Assembly (NCBI RefSeq): GCF_014836535.1
Contig: NZ_JACSQP010000002.1
Span: 1-64,000, forward strand
Length of the DNA stretch: 64,000 nucleotides
Direction: 5' to 3'
Source of the DNA: Microbacterium pullorum
GTDB taxonomy: Bacteria; Actinomycetota; Actinomycetes; Actinomycetales; Microbacteriaceae
Below, piece by piece: positions 55,735 through 57,846 of the stretch (positions within the stretch are counted from its first letter, which is position 1; each line of letters starts with the position of its first letter). The notes below the pieces were generated by a model. The model did no database searches. It worked only from the letters and a program-made list of their open reading frames with translations, and was not told the origin of the DNA. Both the position numbers and the translations under genes were made by a program.

Positions 55735-55763
55735 CGCGTGAGAGCCGTGTCCGAACCCGTCGA

Positions 55764-56443: not shown

Positions 56444-56519
56444 GTGGGTATAGCTCAGTTGGTAGAGCGCGGCCTTGTGGTGGCCGATGTCGCGGGTTCG
56501 AGCCCCGTTACTCACCCCA
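56444..56519 (+). tRNA. tRNA-His (anticodon GTG)
   Basis: Acceptor GTGGGTA/TACTCAC with one wobble, anticodon stem CGGCC/GGCCG around TTGTGGT (anticodon GTG), T-arm GCGGG TTCGAGC CCCGT. C73 and CCA are encoded, and G at 56443 is the genomic G-1 typical of tRNA-His. Confidence 0.97.
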
Positions 56520-56527
56520 AGTGATAC

Positions 56528-56571
56528 GGGCCCGGATCGGATCGAGGATTTCCTCGAACGGATCCGGGCCC
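56528..56571 (+). terminator. Terminator hairpin of tRNA-His
   Basis: GGGCCCGGATC (56528-56538) pairs perfectly with GATCCGGGCCC (56561-56571), with an inner CGAGGA/TCCTCG stem. Confidence 0.8.
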
Positions 56572-56613
56572 TGTGTCGTTGCGCGGCTCGGAAGCGCTGT
56601 CGATCGCCCTCGA

Positions 56614-56619
56614 TAGAAT
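56614..56619 (+). promoter_or_regulatory. Candidate -10 box of the metallopeptidase-clpS-DUF2017 set
   Basis: TAGAAT; the RNA would start near 56626 and carry a leader of about 48 nt up to the mini-ORF. Confidence 0.5.
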
Positions 56620-56673
56620 GAAGCGACGGGTACGCACGCGAAGAGATCGCTTCTCTCGCGCGAGGAGGAGACC

Positions 56674-56697
56674 ATGATGGGCCTGCGGGACGGATGA
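56674..56697 (+). CDS. Seven-codon leader ORF
   Basis: AGGAGGAG (56663-56670) lies 3 nt before ATG 56674, or 6 nt before the following ATG 56677. The frame reads MMGLRDG and stops at TGA 56695-56697, which overlaps the metallopeptidase ATG at 56694 (ATGA). The strong ribosome site thus serves the mini-ORF and could deliver ribosomes to the next gene. The alternative is that translation simply begins at 56694 with the site too far away (23 nt). Confidence 0.45.
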   Translation: MMGLRDG

Positions 56698-57044
56698 TCC
56701 ACATGGATGCCGCGGCGTTCGATGCCCTTGTCACCGACGAACTCGACCGCCTCCCCGATGACATGGTCGACGGCCTCGACAATGTCGTGTTCGTCGTCGA
56801 GGACCGTCCCGAGGACGGCAGCCTCGACCTCTTCGGCCTCTACGACGGCTGGGCGCTGACCGAACGTGACCGATACGGGATGGGAGAGCTCCCCGACCGC
56901 ATCCTGATCTACCGGGAACCACACCTGCATGCCTGCGACACCCTCGACGCGCTGCGCGACGAAGTGCACACCACCCTCGTGCACGAGATCGCCCACTTCT
57001 ACGGCATCGACGACGAACGCCTCCACGAACTGGGCTGGGCCTGA
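56694..57044 (+). CDS. Zincin-like metallopeptidase family protein
   Basis: A 116-residue protein with HExxH in [23 protein letters not shown] near the C-terminus, the signature of the small metallopeptidase (DUF1025-type) family; [45 protein letters not shown] is the other conserved part. Substrate unknown. The stop overlaps the clpS ATG (TGATG). A second in-frame ATG is at 56703. Confidence 0.87.
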
Positions 57045-57340
57045 TGAGCATCGCCCTCCCCGACATCGACGAGCTGACGCGTTCCGACGAGCGCGTCGAC
57101 CCCGCGCGACCGTGGCAGACGGTCGTCTGGAACGACCCGGTGAACCTCATGACGTACGTGGTGCATGTCTTCCGGGAGTACTTCGGGCATCCGCCCGAGG
57201 TCGCCACCCGTCTCATGCTCGCGGTGCACCACGAAGGGCGCGCCGTGGTGTCGGAGGGTCCCCGGGAGCAGATGGAGCTGCACGCGCAGGCGATGCACGA
57301 CTTCGGGCTCTGGGCGACCGTGCAGCAGGCACCGGAGTGA
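57044..57340 (+). CDS. clpS: ATP-dependent Clp protease adaptor ClpS
   Basis: ClpS delivers N-degron proteins to ClpA/ClpC. The 98-residue protein has the conserved [70 protein letters not shown]; the [12 protein letters not shown] part forms the N-degron pocket. It starts on the metallopeptidase stop and ends in a GTGA overlap with the DUF2017 gene. Confidence 0.96.
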
Positions 57341-57846
57341 GCCGCGACACCCCGGTGGTGCTGCAGATCAGTGTCATCGAAGCGGCGCACCTCGCCGACC
57401 TCGTCGGGCAGTTCGCCGAGCTGCTGGCCGACTCGCCCGCCGACGGCTCGGCACGGCCCGACGATCCCGCACTCGCCCGGCTCGTGCCGGACGCCTACCG
57501 TGACGATGCCTCGGCGGCGCAGGAGTTCCGCTCCCTCACCGCCGGCGACTTGCTGCGGCGTCGCCGCGACGAGGCCGAGGCCGTGTTGCGGGACCTCTCC
57601 CCCGGCGGCGCGCCGTGGGACGCCGGCGGGCTGAGCGACGACCGACTCACCGAGACGGTGGAGATCAGGCTGACCCGCGCCGGCGCGCAGGCATGGCTGC
57701 GCACACTCAACGCACTGCGGCTCGTGCTGGCCACCCGGCTCGGCATCGACGCGGAGGACGACCACCGCGACGGCGACCCGCGGTTCGCAATCTACGACTG
57801 GCTCGGCTATCGGCTCGACGCAATCGTCGCCGCGCTCGACGCGTAG
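57337..57846 (+). CDS. DUF2017 domain-containing protein
   Basis: The 169-residue product belongs to the family of actinobacterial genes following clp[93 protein letters not shown] and [18 protein letters not shown]. It is all-helical and cytoplasmic; function unknown. The GTG start overlaps the clpS stop. Confidence 0.9.

Follow-up and report, generated by a model that had tools for sequence, protein, structure and literature searches.

In bicistronic vector designs a second Shine-Dalgarno (SD) sequence lies inside the first ORF. According to a review (PMC12548453), a coupled gene may receive a ribosome from a short ORF upstream of it, and there are natural cases to draw on. For M. tuberculosis uPPE2-ppe2, the published account is of a gene, ppe2, without an SD of its own and with an AUGA in common with an out-of-frame upstream ORF (uORF); mutating the SD or the start of that uORF severely diminished reporter expression, and ppe2 expression is stated to rely on uORF translation, mainly by termination-reinitiation (PMC11260477). 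Small ORFs coupled to genes through RTGA have been reported as over-represented in mycobacteria and proposed to deliver ribosomes (Shell et al. 2015, PMC4633059). Microbacterium is absent among the matches listed on leaderless and uORF translation initiation, which is no claim of absence from print.

Considered here is the head of a conserved Zincin_1-clpS-DUF2017 operon in Microbacterium, within a window that is the whole 64,000-nt stretch of DNA analysed. We think it probable, though a good way from certain, that a seven-codon mini-ORF is the ribosome-loading site of this operon, by termination-reinitiation.

The operon and its head

An oligoribonuclease gene lies upstream, at 55738. The features that then follow are:

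56444-56519, + strand: tRNA-His (GTG) with encoded CCA, upstream of the operon (ARAGORN; Rfam tRNA match 56444-56516)
56523-56577, + strand: strong RNA hairpin after tRNA-His (-44 kcal/mol, z -5.3 versus shuffles)
56614-56619, + strand: TAGAAT, candidate -10 element, the only TANNNT between tRNA-His and the Zincin_1 gene
56663-56670, + strand: SD AGGAGGAG (sequence, 16S tail in the genome, shuffles)
56674-56697, + strand: mini-ORF ATGATGGGCCTGCGGGACGGATGA, encoding MMGLRDG, alternative start 56677 (sequence, ORF scans)
56694-56697, + strand: ATGA stop/start overlap of the mini-ORF and the Zincin_1 gene (sequence)
56694-57044, + strand: Zincin_1 (PF06262) metallopeptidase-family gene, without an SD at 56694 (Pfam 1.2e-28)
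57044-57340, + strand: clpS, its start overlapping the Zincin_1 stop (TGATG) (Pfam/NCBIfam)
57337-57846, + strand: DUF2017 gene, its start overlapping the clpS stop (GTGA, 57337-57340) (Pfam 7.2e-43 for 57340-57843)

The original prediction, that a strong SD is followed by MMGLRDG and by a stop overlapping the ATG of the next gene, is confirmed at 56663-56697. The seven codons begin with ATG at 56674, a second ATG being at 56677, at spacings from AGGAGG of 5 and 8 nt respectively, and the stop, TGA at 56695-56697, overlaps the Zincin_1 ATG at 56694-56696. A 16S tail that would pair with this SD, GGATCACCTCCTTTCT, is present in one copy in the same genome. All the canonical starts behind AGGAGG are out of frame with the Zincin_1 gene, in whose own frame there is no ATG, GTG or TTG back to the TGA at 56619-56621; no SD match of four or more bases was found at 56694. 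Because the Zincin_1 frame is without an upstream start and 56694 is without an SD, the strong SD can serve the mini-ORF only. A second in-frame ATG of the Zincin_1 gene, at 56703, is five bases past the mini-ORF stop and its sole SD match is TGATC, outside the GGAGG core. At the clpS start also there is no SD of four or more bases. Coupling is also what the rest of the operon is laid out for: of 109 loci, 100 have a Zincin_1 stop that overlaps the clpS start (85 NTGA, 15 TGATG), in a count which, being anchored on ClpS similarity and taking the in-frame start nearest the stop, leans towards overlap. A literature search on clpS/DUF2017 found nothing relevant.

The hairpin at 56523-56577 is probably the tRNA-His terminator, one without a clean U run. 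Both terminator and promoter are what we infer, since a consensus scan found neither a U-run terminator nor a sigma-70 consensus pair.

Weight of the SD and of the overlap

It is the SD that is informative, the ATGA overlap being far less so and weak evidence. With 5000 dinucleotide shuffles of the 174-nt leader, AGGAGG on its own appeared in 7.8% and AGGAGG-N4..11-ATG in 1.06%. In the window the latter pattern has four occurrences, both strands counted: that of 56674, those of a 422-aa and an 82-aa ORF, and that of an ATG near 1297, which has its stop (1217) in common with a predicted gene at 1217-1594. An SD-led out-of-frame mini-ORF ending at a gene start was found for the Zincin_1 gene alone among 42 window genes, these being roughly predicted by a crude, GC3-based procedure that misses some genes, DUF2017 among them. 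For the overlap, 30000 simulations each put an ATG at a random distance of 12-45 nt before the Zincin_1 gene, and an ATGA overlap with that gene came from 24% of the placements, a high chance frequency which is due to the gene beginning ATGATC.

Two rival explanations can be judged in part by these figures. The first is direct, weak SD-independent initiation at 56694 or 56703, in which case the mini-ORF would simply have come along with a newly acquired leader and be neutral or mildly inhibitory. This we regard as unlikely, without dismissing it: it has to accept AGGAGG at a good distance from an ATG as a chance event of about 1%, ribosomes loaded at that SD would cross 56694 anyway, and the window has no leaderless-type -10 before 56694, its only TANNNT ending 74 nt upstream. 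The second, which we take to be improbable, is that an SD-started in-frame N-terminal extension became the mini-ORF through a one-base indel, whether real or introduced in assembly. The starts of the mini-ORF, at -20 and -17, are indeed one base off in-frame positions, and the random placements gave an in-frame extension (28%) about as often as ATGA. The assembly, in 23 contigs with 100% completeness and 0.02 contamination, speaks against an error. Relatives bear on both explanations and are dealt with below.

A probable path for the ribosomes

On the reading we favour, loading at the mini-ORF, transcription would start near 56626, as judged from TAGAAT at 56614-56619. 30S subunits would bind AGGAGGAG and initiate at 56674 (or 56677), and the ribosomes would translate seven (or six) codons and halt at the TGA at 56695-56697. 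Re-initiation would occur at the overlapping ATG at 56694, possibly at the ATG at 56703, and ribosomes would be handed on to clpS and DUF2017 via the overlapping junctions TGATG and GTGA. From the anatomy of the locus we infer that there is a promoter, that initiation occurs at the mini-ORF, that re-initiation follows and that output depends on it. Coupling from the mini-ORF, as had been predicted, appears to be the best reading of that anatomy and has experimental precedent in the published uPPE2 account (PMC11260477), but conservation does not come to its aid.

Special structure around the SD was considered and set aside, the folding of the leader being ordinary (z +0.56). Predicted openness of the SD is 0.49 or 0.20, depending on the 5' end assumed, and that of the mini-ORF ATGs likewise varies with the assumed 5' end. 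The Zincin_1 ATG is predicted to be fairly open with either 5' end (0.61, 0.59), and alone it would therefore have no need of unfolding by an upstream ribosome; such openness would also favour direct initiation.

Does the peptide itself matter? MMGLRDG is without runs of a sensing codon and is probably incidental, and a sensor role for the mini-ORF codons was rejected. A short ORF heading an operon is what one would expect of a regulatory leader peptide, whether attenuator or stalling sensor, yet we consider this highly improbable here: MMGLRDG has no single-amino-acid runs except its two initial Met, neither the runs of regulatory codons nor the alternative hairpins of an attenuator are seen (MMGLRDG; fold z +0.56), the only Rfam match above family threshold is to tRNA, and the leader is both ordinary in folding and not conserved. 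A riboswitch or other known RNA leader was likewise discarded, Rfam giving tRNA and a below-threshold L25 match (E 0.18).

Relatives

The comparison covers 271 loci, mostly of Microbacterium plus other genera of the family, 267 with the Zincin_1 gene (tblastn, E 1e-10) and 228 distinct, window included; L049, L053 and L056 have no copy of the gene. They are a sample: two surveys matched 148 of 149 and 136 of 160 genomes, and contributed 30 loci each together with 60 and 40 short stretches. The short stretches reach only ~400 nt upstream, so that the counts of tRNAs given below are lower bounds.

With an SD cut-off of five or more bases, an SD-led out-of-frame ORF ending between -15 and +14 of the Zincin_1 start is present at ten of the 228 loci, window included. 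In the other nine the SDs are all of five bases, and a six-base SD ahead of an out-of-frame ORF that ends at the Zincin_1 start is seen at none of the 227 other loci. The nearest analogues, which appear weak ones, are in L114 (Rathayibacter), with GTG, 8 codons, AAGGA at spacing 11 and an end at -2, and in L174, with ATG, 15 codons, AGGTG at spacing 11 and an end at +2. The ORF of L198 has 25 codons and ends at +13. Several others were rejected as analogues: in L208 and L158 the out-of-frame ORF is the end of a full DUF2017 gene, in L042 and L270 it starts at -76 and -98, at the tRNA 5' end, and in L228 and L245 there are only two-codon TTG frames.

The leader was also sought as DNA, at E up to 0.01, in 366 genomes of the genus (its own and 365 others). 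Some match was obtained in 128, the own genome included, which alone has the whole leader. The strongest matches, over query 134-181, begin at 56693, where the gene starts, and the furthest upstream at a known Zincin_1 copy, in G023, begins at query 126 (56685); none in the 365 other genomes spans SD and mini-ORF at the Zincin_1 gene. Matches in G126 (query 105-149) and G114 (query 91-121) do cover the SD, the former with the whole mini-ORF and the latter with its first bases, and are on other contigs than the Zincin_1 copies of those genomes. Of the weaker short matches (such as those in G318, G289, G210 and G297) none spans the SD. A repeat origin for the leader was tried and rejected, a 501-base query having no match in its own genome, at E 0.001, other than itself. 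The expectation that mini-ORF and ATGA overlap would be conserved thus fails, with none of 227 loci having the six-base SD and no such leader match in 365 genomes. Since the leader is apparently particular to the lineage of the window, a recent origin is indicated rather than an absence of function.

It had also been suggested that the start in relatives may be different. This holds in part: some candidate starts equal 56697 or 56703, or are in frame some 6-10 codons upstream behind an SD, and others equal 56694. An SD of five or more bases precedes an in-frame start in 46 of the 228 loci, relatives often having no SD there, which favours direct initiation; so does the finding that 142 of 227 relatives have a start codon at the equivalent of 56703. 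Within the M. testaceum group the SD-led start is usually GTG at -27, giving a nine-codon extension. SD-led in-frame extensions of this sort, mostly at -27 and in L234 at -18, are what the indel explanation calls for, but the close relatives L003, L004, L006 and L010 have none.

In a quick tree built from the proteins of 109 loci, the window is placed beside L003 (SH-aLRT 87), with L004, L006 and L010 (93 and 92), supports which are moderate. The Zincin_1 genes of L003, L004 and L006 start 19, 22 and 19 nt after tRNA-His and have no five-base SD at the equivalent of 56694; the L010 distance between tRNA-His and the Zincin_1 gene is 81 nt. A gene 19-22 nt after the tRNA leaves no room, in the first three, for the hairpin at 56523-56577. 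Overall tRNA-His is upstream of the Zincin_1 gene in at least 155 of 228 loci and within 60 nt in at least 81. The simplest history, as far as comparison of these loci can suggest one, has the window lineage losing a short head linked to the tRNA and gaining in its place a longer leader that carries signals of its own.

A contig titled Planococcus sp. APC 4015 (L097), a name from Bacillota, groups inside Microbacterium in the tree and is probably misnamed or contaminated. In four loci from other genera of the family (L208, L200, L158 and L163) a DUF2017-like gene, confirmed by Pfam for the first three, is directly upstream of the Zincin_1 gene, the ends overlapping or closely adjoining, in an order different from Zincin_1-clpS-DUF2017. 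From its following a DUF2017-like gene there, the Zincin_1 gene would seem to tolerate feeding from an upstream ORF.

Operon heads across the genus

The starts of the operon in relatives may be of several kinds: a processed tRNA-His 3' end, a leaderless promoter, or an SD with an in-frame extension. At least ten of 228 loci (L011, L035, L042, L043, L071, L092, L133, L136, L140 and L220) have the aligned ATG directly after the encoded CCA of tRNA-His, and the mRNA 5' end there may therefore arise by tRNA 3' processing. For P. acnes and S. coelicolor it has been reported that some CCA ends, where encoded, are cut internally between the Cs (PMC3848588, PMC4681348). A leaderless-like TANNNT 5-8 nt before the start, often TAGGCTGG, is found in 40 of 227 loci, a count for which there was no chance control; L014, L046, L055, L057, L059, L060, L108, L109, L120, L123, L130 and L138 are among those with it. 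This suggests a leaderless transcript for the operon in another branch of the genus and, with the same reservation on chance, lends something to direct initiation.

A broader proposal, offered tentatively and with more doubt than conviction, is that within the genus the operon head serves as an initiation module open to free exchange. The window lineage would have given up a tRNA-linked head and acquired an SD-led mini-ORF together with a terminator and a promoter of its own; the operon would no longer depend on transcription of tRNA-His, and its original start, ATGATxxxxATGGAT, would have been retained. If true, one gene within one genus would show switching among leaderless, SD-led and re-initiated translation starts, and there would be a warning that the place where ribosomes are really loaded onto an operon can be a seven-codon ORF missing from the annotation.

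Comparison with known systems

In being a small ORF before an annotated gene, joined to it by an RTGA tetramer, the mini-ORF is like those of Shell et al. (PMC4633059), its TGA overlapping the RTG of the gene at 56694-56697. The M. tuberculosis set in that report is on leaderless transcripts, whereas the window ORF is SD-led behind a putative leader and is not conserved in its placement. The one TANNNT in the interval from tRNA-His to the gene (56614-56619) is 54 nt away from the mini-ORF ATG, which speaks against a leaderless start there; the conservation between species that was reported for some of the Shell et al. examples is not seen for the mini-ORF. With the bicistronic design of expression vectors, as reviewed (PMC12548453), it has in common a short SD-led ORF that brings, or here would bring, ribosomes to a downstream start, but the window case is natural and has no SD of four or more bases for 56694. 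From what is published of uPPE2-ppe2 the likeness is of SD-led out-of-frame uORF, AUGA overlap and SD-less downstream gene: the mini-ORF has its SD and start at good spacing, and the out-of-frame overlap with a downstream gene lacking an SD is there also. uPPE2-ppe2 is placed behind a B12 riboswitch and its coupling has been demonstrated, while Rfam finds no riboswitch in the window, the ORF is of seven codons and the case is made from sequence. The mini-ORF arrangement is of a known type, in a form of which the relatives compared here gave no second example.
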